Assembly (NCBI RefSeq): GCF_900101015.1
Contig: NZ_FNFZ01000029.1
Location: 7,583 to 45,498, forward strand
Reading direction: 5' to 3'
DNA length: 37,916 nt
DNA from: Sarcina sp. DSM 11001
GTDB lineage: Bacteria; Bacillota; Clostridia; Lachnospirales; Lachnospiraceae
Shown here: in pieces, positions 10,717 to 26,645 of the stretch
Position numbering within the stretch: position 1 is the first letter of the stretch
Layout: every line of letters starts with the position of its first letter
Notes under the pieces: model-generated
Databases searched by the model: none
What the model saw: the letters and a program-made list of their open reading frames with translations, nothing else
Told to the model about the DNA's origin: nothing
Made by a program: the position numbers and the translations under genes

Positions 10717-10908
10717 GTATGAATAAACAGCGAGTCAAGCGGCTGCAAATGCCATGCTCGCATGAGCATTTGCAGACATTTGACGAGCGTTCAAACATGG
10801 GGAAGAAGCCGTTTTGCGCGTGCTTTTCGTGCAAAACAAGCGGATTCCGAATGGTTGGAGCGATGCGAGAGCGCCCGTGGCGCGGAGCAGCGCGTAGTTT
10901 ATTCATAC
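10717..10908. mobile_element. 192-bp element with 12-bp terminal inverted repeats (MITE-like)
   Basis: GTATGAATAAAC at 10717-10728 is the exact reverse complement of GTTTATTCATAC at 10897-10908. Inside lies a hairpin with CTGCAAATGC and GCATTTGCAG arms (about 10743-10775). After it comes a GACGAGCGTTCAAACA block that recurs in a second element at 30607-30740. No transposase is encoded, so any movement would need one supplied elsewhere. Confidence 0.6.
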
Positions 10909-20509: not shown

Positions 20510-23500
20510 ATGAAGAAAAGAAGGATACTTGCACTGGCACTTGCGCTTGCTTTGATCATGAGCCTCGTCCCGGTTTCCGGTCTGGCTGCAGAGCCTGTCG
20601 GTTTCATGGATCCCGGTGCAGTGATGCAGGAGGATACAGAGGAATCGGTAAATACGGAAGCGGTGAACGGAGAGGAAGCTTTATCTCCTGACACTTTCGG
20701 GGACGGGGAAGAAGGATCATGGCAGGATCCCGCAGGGTCCGCCGAAGACAACGATGCAGACCAGGCTCTGGAGGAGACGCCTGCCGCAGAGGATGACGGC
20801 GCAGACCAGGTCCTGGAGGAGACAACGGCCGTCGAGGACGATGGTGCAGACCAGGTCCCGGAGGAGACACCGGCCGTTGAGGACGATGGTGCAGACCAGG
20901 CCCTGGAGGAGACACCGGCCGTTGAGGACGAGGGTGCAGACCAGGATCTGGAAGAGGAGGCTGCTGTCGAAGAAGAGAACAGCGAGCCCGTTGATGAAGA
21001 GGACGCTGAAGCTGTAGAGGTAAGCGCCCCGGATCAGAACGAGGAGACTGCAGACGCGCAGGAAGCTGTCTCTGAAGACACACAGGAAGCTGCCGCTGCG
21101 GACATACAGGAAACTGCCGCTGCGGACACAGAGGAAGCAGGATCTGTGGATGAACCAGCAGTTCCCGCAGAGGACGGATCTGCTGCGGAATCCGCTGTGG
21201 ATGAAGCAGCGGTTCCCGCGGAGGAAGAATCCCTTGCGGATACTTCTGCGAATGAGGTCGAAGACGGCTATTCCTATGTCCTGATGAACATCCCCTACGC
21301 GGAATTTTACGCGGCGGAGCTGGCGGCCGGCAGCCCGGCAGTCGACGCGGTCGCTTCCGCGACGAAAAACAAACCCCGCACAGGGACTCTGGCGGGCGGA
21401 TCCTACCACGTGGACCCGGAGGGCACCGACATCAGCGGTGTCATCTATCCTGTCAAGGCCAGCAATGATGATATTGCAGCCCTGATTGCCTATGATGAGA
21501 ATCTTATGATCACGGATGAGTCCATTATCGCCATCACAGTGACCAACAGGGGACAGGAGACCACGACATGGTATGAAGGAAAGGACGCTCTCTTTGAGGC
21601 GCCTGACCACAGCTTCTATATCACGGATGATGATCCGGCCTATTATAAGGAAATGTCCATGGAAGCTGACGGGACGATGACCTTCGGACCGGTCCAGGGA
21701 GATGCGGTATCGGTTGAAGGTGTGACCGGAGCTGTTACCATCGGTGCCCGTCACGCCAATATTGAGATCAAACTCAGCGGTACGGACGGCGTCGCTCAGG
21801 GAGATGCAGTCTCCGGAGCAGTCGTAACCGCAGCGGACGATGAAGGAAATGCCACTCAGTACGGACTCCGCCATGTGGTCAATATCTGGCGCGGGACTGA
21901 GATCGGCTGGAACTACGATGAACTCGACATTTACGGAAAGACCATCACCAATATCCGCTATTACAAGCAGGACGCAGTGATCGATTATCCTGTGGACATT
22001 CCGGTCAGGGCACAGTATGTTCTGATGAACATTCCCTACGCGGATTTCTACGCTGCAGAACTTAAGGCGGGAAGCGCGGCCGTCGACGCAGTCGCTTCTG
22101 CCACGAAGAGCAAACCCCTCAACGCCAGGCTTGCAGGCGGTTCTTATCATGTGAACGCGGACGGATCGGATATCTCCGGTGTGATCTACCCCGTAAAGGT
22201 CAACAGCCCGGAGGATCTGGCGAAGCTGGAGGAAAAAGGAGCAGCCGTCATCACCGATGATTCGAGTGTGGATGTCTCAGTCCCCGGCAGGAACGGCGCT
22301 GATCCCACGATCACTGTTTACAATGGAAAAGATGCCCTTTTCCAGGCACCTGACTACAGCTACTATGACCTGGGCAGCGGAATCCAGAGCTTTTATAAGG
22401 AACTGACTGTCGCAGAGGACGGAAGCCTGTCCTTTGGCGCCGTGAAAGGCACCACGACCAGGGCGGAAGCGGAGGTGTCCGTCACGGCAAATGCTTCCCA
22501 CACTTATTATGAGATGAAAGTGACCTCCGACTATGTACAGACGGGAGATACGGTCAGCGCAGTCGTCATGACCGCAGAGGACGGCACCACCTACGGCCTG
22601 CGCCATATGGCCAACCTTTGGAGAGGAACGGAGATCGGATTTGAGGCGGATGAGACCTTCAGCGCCCTGATTGGAAAGAAGATCACAGGCCTGAAATTCA
22701 TCACCCAGAACGGAATCTACAACTTTACTGTGGACGCGCTCATTCCGGAGAAGCTTCCGGAGTATGTCCTGATGAACATCCCTTACGCGGACTTCTACGC
22801 CGCGGAGCTGGCCCAGGGCAGCCTGGCTGTCGACGCGGTCGCCTCCGCGACGATGAGCAAGCCCCGCAGCTCTCTGGCAAACGGATCCTACCACGTGAAT
22901 GTCGATGGCAGTGACATCAGTGGTGTCGTCTATCCTGTGAAGGTGGGCAAGGGCTTCCAGCTCGATCCCGCAAAGCAGGTCACGGATGCGGACAGCTTAT
23001 CTATTACAGTCATGCTCCGCGGCCAGGAAACGACAACAGAATATACCGGCAGAAATGCCCTGTTTGAAGCCCCTGACTACTCCTGGTATGCGCTCAGCGC
23101 AGAGGAAGTGCCCGCCTTCTTCAAGGAGGTCAGGTCTAACCACGGAAATACCAGCTTTGGCGCGGCAGTCGGAGAGATACTGACAGCACAGGCAACCGCG
23201 GAGGTCAAGGCAAAAGGCCGTCATGCGGACTATGAGATCAAGCTCACTCCGGATGAGGGCGTACTGGACCAGGCGACCGATGTTGTAAACGCAGTGGTCC
23301 TCACGGACTCCGAAGGAAATACCTATGGTCTGCGCCATGTCGTCAATATCTGGAGAGTCCTGGAGGTGGGCTTTAACCGGGACGAGCCGGCAGGCGCCCT
23401 CGCAGGCAAAAAGATCACTAACATCAGATACTTCAAGCAGAATGGAATCTTAGATCTGACTGTCGACATCGACGTTCCTGTCCTTTCCACCGCAGTCACT

Positions 23501-24739
23501 CTGGACAAGACCTCCGTCTCCCTGCTGGCAGGCAAAACAGCTGCCCTTGCTGCGACGGTCAATCCGGAGCAGGCAGGCCAGGCAGTGACATGGACCAGCA
23601 GCGATGAAAACGTGGTCACTGTCGATGAGAACGGCGTTCTCACGGCAGTTGCGGCAGGTACCGCGACAGTCACCGCTGCCGCCGCGGACAACACCGGCGC
23701 CTCGGCAGTCTGCGAAGTGACAGTCACGAAGCCTGTCTCCTCGATTAAACTGGACAAGACCAGCGCCTCCATCCTCAGAGGAAAGACAGTCACTCTCAAA
23801 GCGACCGTATCTCCTGATGATGCCGCCAACAAGGCAGTCACCTGGTCCAGTAGCGACAAGAAGATCGCGACTGTGGACGCAAAGGGCGTTGTCACGGGCG
23901 TTGCAAAGGGTACCGCTACGATCACGGCTAAGGCAAAAGACGGCAGCGGCGTGAAAGCCACCTGCAAGATTACAGTCAAGCAGCCCTTCACCAAGATCAC
24001 CCTCAGCAAGACATCGGCCTCGATCCTGAGGAACAAGACAATCACCCTCAAGGCCACCGCAGGCCCTTCCTCCGCCAATGATAAGTCTGTCGCCTGGACG
24101 ACCAGCAACAAGAAGGTCGCTACAGTGGATTCCAAGGGTGTCGTCAAGGGTATCGCCAAGGGAACCGCGACGATCACGGCGACGGCCAGAGACGGCAGCA
24201 AGGTCAAAGCCACCTGCAAGATCACAGTCAAACAGCCCGTCACCAAGATCACCCTCAATAAGACATCGGCCTCGATCCTGAGGAACAAGACAATTACCCT
24301 CAAGGCCACTGCAGGCCCTTCTTCCGCCAATGACAAGTCTGTTACCTGGACGACCAGCAACAAGAAGGTTGCGACAGTGAACTCTAAGGGCGTCGTCAAG
24401 GGCATCGCCAAGGGAACCGCGACGATCACGGCGACCGCAAAGGACGGCAGCAAGGTCAAGGCTGTCTGCAAGATTACGGTCAAACAGCCCGTCACGAAAC
24501 TGACGATCAACAAGACCAAACTTACTGTGAAGAAGGGCAAGACCGCCACTCTCAAAGTGACAGTCGCTCCTTCGTCCGCCAACGACAAATCCCTCAAATG
24601 GACCACCAGCAATAAGAACATTGCGACCGTGACCCAGAAGGGTGTCGTCAAAGGAATAAAGACGGGAACAGTTACAATTACAGCCGCCGCAAGGGACGGC
24701 AGCGGTAAAAAAGTCACCTGCAAGATTACCGTGCAGTAA
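20510..24739 (+). CDS. Giant surface protein: three Tp47-like repeats plus five Big2 domains
   Basis: This 1409-residue protein starts at an ATG after AAGGAGGAG. Residues 1-27 are a signal peptide (MKKRRILALALALALIMSLV, cleaved near SGLAAE). Residues 79-153 are five 15-residue acidic repeats, and acidic low complexity runs on to about 250. Three long repeats start at residues 256, 503 and 752, each opening YVLMNIPYA(E/D)FYAAEL, then VDAVASAT, GSYHV, DISGVIYPVK and GLRH(V/M)xNxWR. This pattern recalls the N-terminal domain of the Treponema pallidum lipoprotein Tp47. From about residue 993 there are five Big2 domains of 84 residues. No LPxTG anchor is visible; the C-terminus ends in the last Big2. 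The role is unknown, and an adhesin or cell-surface ligand/cofactor-binding protein is plausible. Confidence 0.9.
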   Translation: MKKRRILALALALALIMSLVPVSGLAAEPVGFMDPGAVMQEDTEESVNTEAVNGEEALSPDTFGDGEEGSWQDPAGSAEDNDADQALEETPAAEDDGADQVLEETTAVEDDGADQVPEETPAVEDDGADQALEETPAVEDEGADQDLEEEAAVEEENSEPVDEEDAEAVEVSAPDQNEETADAQEAVSEDTQEAAAADIQETAAADTEEAGSVDEPAVPAEDGSAAESAVDEAAVPAEEESLADTSANEVEDGYSYVLMNIPYAEFYAAELAAGSPAVDAVASATKNKPRTGTLAGGSYHVDPEGTDISGVIYPVKASNDDIAALIAYDENLMITDESIIAITVTNRGQETTTWYEGKDALFEAPDHSFYITDDDPAYYKEMSMEADGTMTFGPVQGDAVSVEGVTGAVTIGARHANIEIKLSGTDGVAQGDAVSGAVVTAADDEGNATQYGLRHVVNIWRGTEIGWNYDELDIYGKTITNIRYYKQDAVIDYPVDIPVRAQYVLMNIPYADFYAAELKAGSAAVDAVASATKSKPLNARLAGGSYHVNADGSDISGVIYPVKVNSPEDLAKLEEKGAAVITDDSSVDVSVPGRNGADPTITVYNGKDALFQAPDYSYYDLGSGIQSFYKELTVAEDGSLSFGAVKGTTTRAEAEVSVTANASHTYYEMKVTSDYVQTGDTVSAVVMTAEDGTTYGLRHMANLWRGTEIGFEADETFSALIGKKITGLKFITQNGIYNFTVDALIPEKLPEYVLMNIPYADFYAAELAQGSLAVDAVASATMSKPRSSLANGSYHVNVDGSDISGVVYPVKVGKGFQLDPAKQVTDADSLSITVMLRGQETTTEYTGRNALFEAPDYSWYALSAEEVPAFFKEVRSNHGNTSFGAAVGEILTAQATAEVKAKGRHADYEIKLTPDEGVLDQATDVVNAVVLTDSEGNTYGLRHVVNIWRVLEVGFNRDEPAGALAGKKITNIRYFKQNGILDLTVDIDVPVLSTAVTLDKTSVSLLAGKTAALAATVNPEQAGQAVTWTSSDENVVTVDENGVLTAVAAGTATVTAAAADNTGASAVCEVTVTKPVSSIKLDKTSASILRGKTVTLKATVSPDDAANKAVTWSSSDKKIATVDAKGVVTGVAKGTATITAKAKDGSGVKATCKITVKQPFTKITLSKTSASILRNKTITLKATAGPSSANDKSVAWTTSNKKVATVDSKGVVKGIAKGTATITATARDGSKVKATCKITVKQPVTKITLNKTSASILRNKTITLKATAGPSSANDKSVTWTTSNKKVATVNSKGVVKGIAKGTATITATAKDGSKVKAVCKITVKQPVTKLTINKTKLTVKKGKTATLKVTVAPSSANDKSLKWTTSNKNIATVTQKGVVKGIKTGTVTITAAARDGSGKKVTCKITVQ
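20744..20968 (+). repeat. Five tandem 45-bp coding repeats
   Basis: Each 45-bp unit encodes a variant of EDDGADQALEETPAV. The middle units differ at only a few bases, so the array probably changes length between strains by slippage or recombination. Confidence 0.9.
21275..23480 (+). repeat. Three long Tp47-like protein repeats (about 247 residues each)
   Basis: Units begin at 21275, 22016 and 22763. The opening about 40 residues and the GLRH(V/M)xNxWR block near the end are strongly conserved, while the middles have diverged. The conserved VDAVASAT motif begins at residues 278, 525 and 774. Confidence 0.88.
23987..24490 (+). repeat. Near-identical adjacent Big2 units 3 and 4
   Basis: The 252-bp units at 23987-24238 and 24239-24490 are almost identical, differing by a handful of bases. 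Units 1, 2 and 5 are more diverged. This points to a recent in-frame duplication. Confidence 0.85.
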
Positions 24740-24819
24740 ATGACCTGCCGGGTCCGACAGCGCAGCCTGCTGCCTGAGAACCGGCAATAAGGCCTGTCGC
24801 AAAACAGGACAAACCAGGA

Positions 24820-24878
24820 GGGGACGATTCTATTGTCTGGCTGGATGGATTTCGCCAGACAAATAGATCGTCCCCTTT
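24820..24878 (+). terminator. Terminator of the surface-protein gene
   Basis: GGGGACGAT (24820-24828) pairs with ATCGTCCCC (24867-24875), with an inner TTGTCTGGC/GCCAGACAA stem, followed by TTT. It is a long, strong hairpin with a short U-tract. Confidence 0.82.
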
Positions 24879-25148
24879 CTGAAATCAGGGGGAGGTTGAC
24901 CCTGTATGTAAGAAGCAAATCGTTATCTGCCCAAAATGTTCTGGCGATCATGCAATTCTGGAATCATGCCGGATGGGTTTTTAGTTGATAACAGATTAAA
25001 AAGCATATATCATAAGGAGAAATGCGTTCAACATGACTGGGTTTCCAGTTATTTTCACGGATTTTTCACAAAAAAGTATTTAAATAGAGAAGCGTTTCCG
25101 CAGGGGAGCTTTCCAGAAGATAAGAATTATCACAGAGAGGACAGATAG
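24879..25148 (+). other. Gap upstream of the FMN transferase gene
   Basis: No convincing gene. It holds AAGGAG followed by ATGCGTTCAACATGA near 25014-25035, which could only encode four residues. The 3' end supplies the GAGAGGA ribosome binding site for the TTG at 25149. An open frame over 24936-25148 has no ribosome binding site or recognisable product. Confidence 0.45.
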
Positions 25149-26645
25149 TTGAGAAAAAGAGGATTTATCCGGGAACCTGTTAAAAGAGCAGCGCTGATCC
25201 TGCTTGCTGCAATCATGATCACCGCCGGAACCGGTTGTGCCGCAACCAGTCAAAAGGGAGGCAGTACTGTTTCAGAGCAGGAAGAGAACAAAAAGGATGA
25301 GCAGGCGGCTTCTGCCGGAGAAGGCAGCTCCATGAAAAACGGGGTTGAGTTCGCGGCAGAGGAGGGCGGAACTGCTGCCGGGGCAGCAGAGACAACTGCG
25401 CAGGAAAAGGAAAATGCCGGCGGGGAAAAGAAGGCGGAGAAGACGCCCGAGACAGATCTGCTGCAGGAGATTCCGGAAAACCCTGTCCAAAATGATGACG
25501 GAAGCGTTACCATGGATGTTTTTGCCATGGATACTTATATGCATCTTCTGGCCTACGGAGCGGATCCGGGAGATCCGAAACAGGCTGAGAAGGCGGTACG
25601 GGCGGCTGCAAAGGAGATCCACTCTCTGGACTCAAGGCTTTCTACAGGTCTTGCCGACAGTGAAGTGTCCAGACTCAATGCCGCAGGAGGAGGCGCATTA
25701 TCCGGTATTGTCCGGGAGCTGATCCTGAGATCCCAGGATCTCAGAAAAGAGACCGGCGGCCTGTTTGAGATCGCCATCTATCCTGTCATGAAGCTCTGGG
25801 GCTTTCCAACCCAGGAATTCAGGGTGCCCGAAAAGGAAGAGATCGACGCGGCGCTGAAACTGGCGGATGCCTCTGCCATCAGTGTCACAACGAAGACGGT
25901 CACCGAGACAGTTCCGCTGACCCAGGAAGAAGCCGCACAGGCAAAGGCGGCTGCTGCCGGAAAAACAGGGACAGAAACCGGTAAGGACGAGGCCGGACAG
26001 AATGCGGAGAACACAGAGAACAGCAGTACATCCGCAACAGCCGCAGTCCCTGCTGTCAAAACAGTTACAAAAAAAGTCACGGAAGCCAAATACGGGATCA
26101 AGGGAATGGAGATCGACCTGGGCGGCATTGCCAAGGGATATACGGGAGACCGTGTCATGCAGGTCTTCAAAAAGGCCGGAATCTACAGCGGCCTGATCAG
26201 CCTCGGCGGGAATGTCCAGGCTCTCGGCTCCAAACCGGACGGAAGCCCCTGGCGGGTCGCCATCCAGGATCCCCAGAATGAACTGGAATACCTGGGGGTC
26301 CTCGAGATCTCGGACAAGGCCGTGATCACCTCCGGCGGCTATGAACGCTTCTTTGAGGAGGACGGAGTCCGCTATCACCATATCATCGATCCCCGCACCG
26401 GATATCCGGCGGACAGCGGCCTGATCTCTGCCACCATTATCAGTGAAGACGGCACCCTGGCTGACGGTCTCTCCACCTCCCTTTTCATTATGGGTAAGGA
26501 CGAGGCGGAAGAGTTCTGGAGGGCCAACTCCGACAAATTTGATTATATCCTCGAGTCCGCAGACGGACGCCTCTATGTGACAGAGGGGGTTGTCGGCTCC
26601 TTCACCACAAACGCCAAGACTATTGTGATCAGAAAGAAAAAATAA
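25149..26645 (+). CDS. apbE: Lipoprotein FAD:protein FMN transferase (ApbE family)
   Basis: The TTG at 25149 follows GAGAGGA. The 498-residue product has a signal peptide with a lipobox ending TAGTGC, so Cys about 29 would carry the lipid and the enzyme faces outward. An acidic/Ala-rich linker runs to about residue 115. ApbE blocks follow: FAMDTYMHLLAYG, LSTGLADSEVSRLNAAGGG, ETGGLFEIAIYPVMKLWGF, MEIDLGGIAKGYTGDRVM, GLISLGGNVQALGSKPDGSPW, HHIIDPRTGYP and ADGLSTSLFIMG. Residues about 245-315 are a low-complexity insert not usual in the family. ApbE enzymes attach FMN to a Thr/Ser in target proteins using FAD and Mg2+. The gene lies about 410 bp after the surface protein, which carries three motifs like the target site. 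Confidence 0.95.
   Translation: MRKRGFIREPVKRAALILLAAIMITAGTGCAATSQKGGSTVSEQEENKKDEQAASAGEGSSMKNGVEFAAEEGGTAAGAAETTAQEKENAGGEKKAEKTPETDLLQEIPENPVQNDDGSVTMDVFAMDTYMHLLAYGADPGDPKQAEKAVRAAAKEIHSLDSRLSTGLADSEVSRLNAAGGGALSGIVRELILRSQDLRKETGGLFEIAIYPVMKLWGFPTQEFRVPEKEEIDAALKLADASAISVTTKTVTETVPLTQEEAAQAKAAAAGKTGTETGKDEAGQNAENTENSSTSATAAVPAVKTVTKKVTEAKYGIKGMEIDLGGIAKGYTGDRVMQVFKKAGIYSGLISLGGNVQALGSKPDGSPWRVAIQDPQNELEYLGVLEISDKAVITSGGYERFFEEDGVRYHHIIDPRTGYPADSGLISATIISEDGTLADGLSTSLFIMGKDEAEEFWRANSDKFDYILESADGRLYVTEGVVGSFTTNAKTIVIRKKK

Follow-up and report, generated by a model that had tools for sequence, protein, structure and literature searches.

The window, by which we mean the whole stretch of 37,916 nucleotides that was analysed, contains a gene for a large surface protein that is followed on the same strand by a gene for an ApbE FAD:protein FMN transferase (Table 1). 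The N-terminus of the surface protein is signal-like and that of ApbE is signal- or lipoprotein-like, both judged by reading alone. In the surface protein, an acidic region rich in Glu, Ala and Asp (about aa 60-250) precedes three repeats of about 250 aa each, and Pfam also recognized five Big_2 stretches. Repeats 2 and 3 are 50% and 52% identical to repeat 1, respectively. The first-pass annotation had read VDAVASAT in each repeat, with Thr285, Thr532 and Thr781 as possible sites of FMN attachment; coordinates and residues are right, and its observation of motif-bearing repeats beside an apbE gene is confirmed. Elsewhere in the window, a Clostridiales-1 RNA (RF01699, 82.1 bits) is located at 10722-10903.

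Table 1. Features of the surface protein-apbE locus (window coordinates).
Feature	Position	Strand	Basis
Surface protein gene, 1409 aa	20510..24739	+	ORF and Pfam; composition, coordinates
Tp47-fold repeat 1	21260..22024	+	
DAVASAT in repeat 1 (Thr285 as candidate site for FMN)	21344..21364	+	
Tp47-fold repeat 2, aligned bounds overlapping neighbours	22007..22777	+	
DAVASAT in repeat 2 (Thr532 as candidate site for FMN)	22085..22105	+	
Tp47-fold repeat 3	22766..23500	+	
DAVASAT in repeat 3 (Thr781 as candidate site for FMN)	22832..22852	+	
409-bp gap, surface gene to apbE	24740..25148	.	Hairpin and promoter-like site
ApbE FAD:protein FMN transferase gene	25149..26645	+	Pfam; whole-genome search

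The identity of the neighbouring gene is clear from its PF02424 match (281 bits against a cut-off of 25.6), and a whole-genome search found no apbE in this genome other than the window copy. A low-complexity insertion splits the Pfam match of this ApbE; two matches were likewise obtained for the ApbE proteins of five genomes of the same genus (G289, G291, G292, G296 and G299; G and L numbers denote genomes and loci). Because the gap between the two genes contains a strong hairpin (about 24818-24878, z -5.7) and a promoter-like site (24985-25013), co-transcription of the surface gene and apbE is doubtful.

Structure comparison with 1o75 showed that the repeats have the Tp47 fold, with 13% identity to Tp47 in the structural alignment. 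Neither PF14889 nor PF14888 matched above the cut-off; the best match, for repeat 1 only, had an E-value of 0.063 and 13.2 bits against the 25 required. The annotation had pointed out that Tp47 itself carries a related stretch of the DAVSRAT type, and this is the case: 1o75 and five Tp47_a rows have Arg at motif position 5, the slot of the consensus Gly, whereas the repeats have Ser. Because an FMN_bind protein has also been crystallised without FMN, presumably for want of a transferase (accessible part of PMC10339131), a Tp47 crystal without reported flavin need not oppose flavinylation.

Homology of the repeats to FMN_bind was considered and rejected, as the alignment comprised the 12 motif columns only, with a probability of 4.3%. 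A PF04205 search of the surface protein gave no match, and FMN_bind was absent among the structure matches listed for the whole repeat and for its N-terminal 150 residues. FMN_bind, these repeats and Tp47_a/c domains are joined in one chain in L011, L017 and L020; in L018, the FMN_bind domain of such a chain falls below the cut-off. A further type of stretch, with AYDAVTSATxFSGxHAKDIPSL, was seen in the surface proteins of L098 (about aa 620-675) and L100 (about aa 638-763 and 952-1049, both in stop-to-stop frame numbering). The L098 copy has no Pfam match, and this type of stretch may be a further, divergent carrier of the motif.

The motif was surveyed in 53 rows of the repeat family, the three window copies among them, and is nearly fixed, which supports the annotation's interpretation. 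Asp is present in all 53 rows, Ser or Thr occupies position 4 in 50, Ser occupies the Gly slot in 51, Ala follows at position 6 in 49, and the last position is Thr in 52 and Ser in one. Ala at position 4 is confined to the window's own three rows. Lys38 is present in 52 rows, and among 195 columns ranked by conservation Asp, Thr and Lys38 stand 6th, 14th and 15th. Invariant aromatic residues of the repeat alignment are Tyr13, Phe16, Tyr17, His205 and Trp210. The strict ApbE motif D-x-x-[S/T]-G-A-[S/T] is found in none of the rows (the window copies read DAVASAT), and a relaxed form, D-x-x-[STA]-[GSTA]-A-[ST], which allows for replacements that Rnf subunits from these genomes show, is found in 49. 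This relaxed form is rare in the other ORFs of the same loci (2 in 108,092 aa), and composition shuffles of the repeats produce it in 2.8%. The motif stretch is modelled with low confidence (pLDDT 58 for the block 31-40 and, in another model, below 50 for residues 29-51); a low-confidence loop that holds the top-conserved Asp, Thr and Lys38 is as expected of a recognition or binding site. A divergent subfamily beside FMN_bind genes (L079, L081-L084) reads DAVSSVT, DSVSSVT, DAVTSPT or DSVSSPT, and L096 has Glu in place of the motif Asp. Copies 2 and 3 of the window group together (0.92) and copy 1 pairs weakly with L098 (0.72), so that the three copies may, but need not, stem from one young triplication.

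NqrB/RnfD and FMN_bind are established ApbE substrates, and the repeats share with them the pattern D-x-x-[ST]-x-A-T. That Ser replaces the consensus Gly in the window motif had been given as a doubt; the replacement is real, and Ser occupies the same slot in the RnfD of this genome, which reads DAVTSAT. RnfD could be read in 25 of 27 loci, with Gly in the slot in 15, Thr in five, Ser in four and Met in one, so that Ser or Thr is found in 9/25; Ala stands at position 4 in 2/25, and one RnfG (L060) has Ala at position 5. RnfD is named among the flavinylated classes in the accessible part of PMC11334425, and we infer that the RnfD of this organism carries flavin. For one model protein, the accessible part of PMC12052999 reports that Gly-to-Ala and Ala-to-Val changes lower flavinylation to about half. 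By contrast, Gly is retained in 42/52 FMN_bind domains from these loci (Arg in six, His in three, Glu in one).

The RnfG of this genome (L038) reads FAFISGASVSG, with the motif Asp replaced and Ser as the acceptor. Arg or His stands in place of Gly in the last FMN_bind domain of the multi-FMN_bind proteins of L011, L013, L016, L017, L018 and L087 and in the last two of the L020 protein; these terminal variants read DTVSRAT, DTVSHAT, DTVTRAT and similar, with Arg as in Tp47_a.

We examined co-localisation with apbE in 250 Lachnospiraceae genomes, one per genus, of which 27, including the present one, carry the repeat domain. The mere presence of apbE was discarded as a test: because the gene is found in 193 of the 223 genomes without the domain as well as in all 27 with it (Fisher P 0.026), presence says little, and distance is the useful measure. 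An apbE gene lies within 10 kb of a repeat gene in 18 of the 27 genomes (17 of 26 without our own) against 0.25 expected under random placement (P about 4e-31), so that Tp47-like genes and apbE do co-occur beyond chance, the check that the annotation had proposed. These distances were taken among the matches listed, and the apbE genes of five genomes were looked up separately. In at least 24 of the 26 other genomes, FMN_bind is part of the same ORF or no more than 10 kb away. This ties the repeats to flavin proteins, in favour of a flavin role, but it also counts against flavinylation of the repeats, since FMN_bind genes in these clusters explain the co-localisation of apbE equally well. Neither apbE nor FMN_bind was nearby among the matches listed for G136 and G203, and a local profile found none of the genes in L094 (G136).

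A second sample of 32 loci, which overlaps the first (L011, from Fusicatenibacter saccharivorans, and G118 share apbE coordinates), showed apbE inside the fetched flanks of 14, with several flanks ending at contig ends. A common order (L011, L013, L016, L017, L018 and L020) is apbE, a multi-FMN_bind gene, a small FMN_bind gene, further genes and the surface protein gene. In L018 and L020, the two loci checked, the gene that follows the small FMN_bind gene encodes a NapH-like Fer4_5 protein. A shorter repeat protein is paired with an FMN_bind gene in L023, L024, L027-L032, L079 and L081-L084. In L011, L018, L020, L026, L029, L079 and L099, Shr-like HID (haemoglobin-interacting) domains above the cut-off occur in the same protein as Tp47-fold repeats, a hint at haem or iron as the acceptor.

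Within the genus, 4/25 genomes carry the repeat domain. The gene order in G299 (L098) is cyclophilin, surface protein, a protein with five FMN_bind domains (5xFMN_bind), a further FMN_bind protein, a NapH-like protein, ApbE and NhaC. In G289 (L100), cyclophilin, the surface protein, 5xFMN_bind and a small FMN_bind protein are together and apbE is on another contig, and G292 (L108) has FMN_bind, NapH-like, ApbE and NhaC genes. Cyclophilin, ApbE and NhaC genes stand together without the cassette in G291 and G290, as do cyclophilin and ApbE genes in G282. Among 13 apbE loci from members of the genus that lack the repeat domain, apbE is at the window's place in three (L106, L110 and L113), none with the surface gene, and has no window marker genes beside it in nine (L101-L105, L107, L109, L111 and L112), three of which are contigs of about 3 kb; the remaining locus is L108, with the gene order given above. 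Because of these nine loci, and because the cassette of G301 also lacks the window's marker genes, the position that apbE has in the window is not one shared by all members of the genus.

Neither a multi-FMN_bind gene nor a transmembrane electron carrier was found within the window, and a PF04205 search of the assembly (98.6% complete) recovered neither a 5xFMN_bind nor a small FMN_bind gene of this kind. The FMN_bind domains that the genome does have are on other contigs: the Rnf contig has them in RnfG and in a fumarate-reductase-like protein, and others belong to a subtilase and to two other large proteins. Most simply, the locus in the window can be read as a reduced cassette whose other genes may have been lost here, unless they were gained in G299. 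The hairpin of the 409-bp gap lies at the site where cassette genes are missing and could act as a terminator or represent a small repeat; among 113 loci, exact 20-base copies of it occur only in L033 and L034, overlapping loci of this same genome, and a search of the gap for remnants of the missing genes gave nothing convincing. Whether by loss or by gain, a cassette that carries ordinary substrates accounts for the adjacency, which is the main correction to the annotation.

Clusters of this kind have precedents. The accessible part of the eLife 2021 paper PMC8238504 describes clusters of genes for multi-flavinylated proteins in which large cell-wall proteins that lack annotation also occur, and its main text does not contain the term Tp47. 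Like those clusters, the related loci have apbE, multi-FMN_bind, further FMN_bind and large surface protein genes, some of the surface proteins have FIVAR domains, and a NapH-like Fer4_5 protein is present where checked (L018, L020 and L098); unlike them, the window has no FMN_bind or NapH-like members, whereas G299 has the full set. According to the accessible parts of PMC8238504 and PMC11334425, DUF2271, DUF3570, Flavodoxin_4 and FMN_red have been shown to be ApbE substrates at the bench, and for the latter two it was apbE co-localisation together with the motif that led to the proof (PMC11334425). The repeats resemble these four in having both features on a fold that is apparently not FMN_bind; they differ in that their clusters also hold FMN_bind genes and in being candidate substrates by sequence. 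In the open-access literature, we found no earlier link of Tp47, or of Tp47 domain names, to ApbE or flavin.

Support is good for the view that the surface protein originates as the outer member of a cassette for flavin-based extracellular electron transfer, and we hold it with considerable confidence. The parent cassette would have comprised a NapH-like membrane iron-sulfur protein, a small FMN_bind protein, a multi-FMN_bind protein, the large surface protein and ApbE, of which the window would keep only the surface gene and apbE. In the explanation that we favour, although its chances fall just short of even, ApbE would recognise a relaxed D-x-x-[S/T/A]-S-A-T in a presumably exposed loop that follows helix 1 of every Tp47-fold domain. 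It would transfer FMN from FAD to the motif threonine, and each domain would present its flavin at the cell surface and pass electrons to an outside acceptor. As searches of this genome did not recover the usual FMN_bind partners, electrons would have to arrive by another route, such as Rnf or the other FMN_bind proteins. The proposal builds on the observed fold, motif conservation, co-localisation and synteny. Direct flavinylation, which the motif suggests, has about an even chance for the repeat family and a somewhat lower one for the window protein. The annotation's interpretation thus stands in part: the near-fixed motif, the Ser slot shared with RnfD and the co-localisation with apbE speak for it, and the ApbE next door has lost its value as specific evidence, since canonical FMN_bind and NapH-like genes intervene in G299 and apbE occupies the same place in three members of the genus that lack the surface gene.

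Close behind, and ranked just below flavinylation, comes the reading in which the repeats carry no flavin and act as the receptor or scaffold of the flavin cassette, binding the acceptor, haem or a cell-wall ligand through a D-x-x-[ST]-S-A-T-x-x-K loop that is ligand-binding or structural, while ApbE serves RnfG/RnfD and FMN_bind proteins. The nearby canonical FMN_bind domains in nearly all other genomes with the repeat fit such a role, as do the HID domains in several of the same proteins, the conservation of Lys38 as strong as that of the motif, the relatives with Val, Pro or Arg at positions 5-6, and a position 5 that is nearly fixed as Ser where RnfD varies. A ligand loop would, however, have to match the RnfD site of the same genome, end in Thr with a single Ser, and use a pattern that is rare in the other ORFs.

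Even if relatives are flavinylated, the protein could be a relic in this organism, with its electron-supplying genes absent and its motif drifted, now serving as an adhesin-like protein or as some other surface protein with no redox role. The cassette genes between surface gene and apbE in G299, the partial sets in G289 and G292, the lack of 5xFMN_bind and small FMN_bind genes in the present assembly and the restriction of Ala at position 4 to the window copies all point in this direction, but the ORF is open throughout, all three repeats retain Asp, Ser, Ala and Thr of the motif, and RnfD, too, can have Ala at position 4; we regard a relic as improbable. Far less probable still is that motif likeness and gene adjacency are unrelated. 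The three repeats count as one event, the strict motif is absent and shuffles do produce the relaxed one, yet coincidence accounts neither for the observed excess of nearby apbE genes nor for a motif nearly fixed across the family.

If the threonines carry FMN, the recognition rule of ApbE would be wider than written, a function would emerge for the large surface proteins found with many flavin electron-transfer clusters of Clostridia, and the puzzling Tp47 fold would gain a redox link. As a rather doubtful extension, the Tp47 fold may be an unrecognised class of ApbE substrate with which Lachnospiraceae and relatives display strings of covalent FMN on surface repeats, attached at a relaxed D-x-x-[S/T]-S-A-T site, with Tp47 itself a carrier or the descendant of one. 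Even without flavin, Tp47-fold proteins are tied to flavin electron-transfer clusters.
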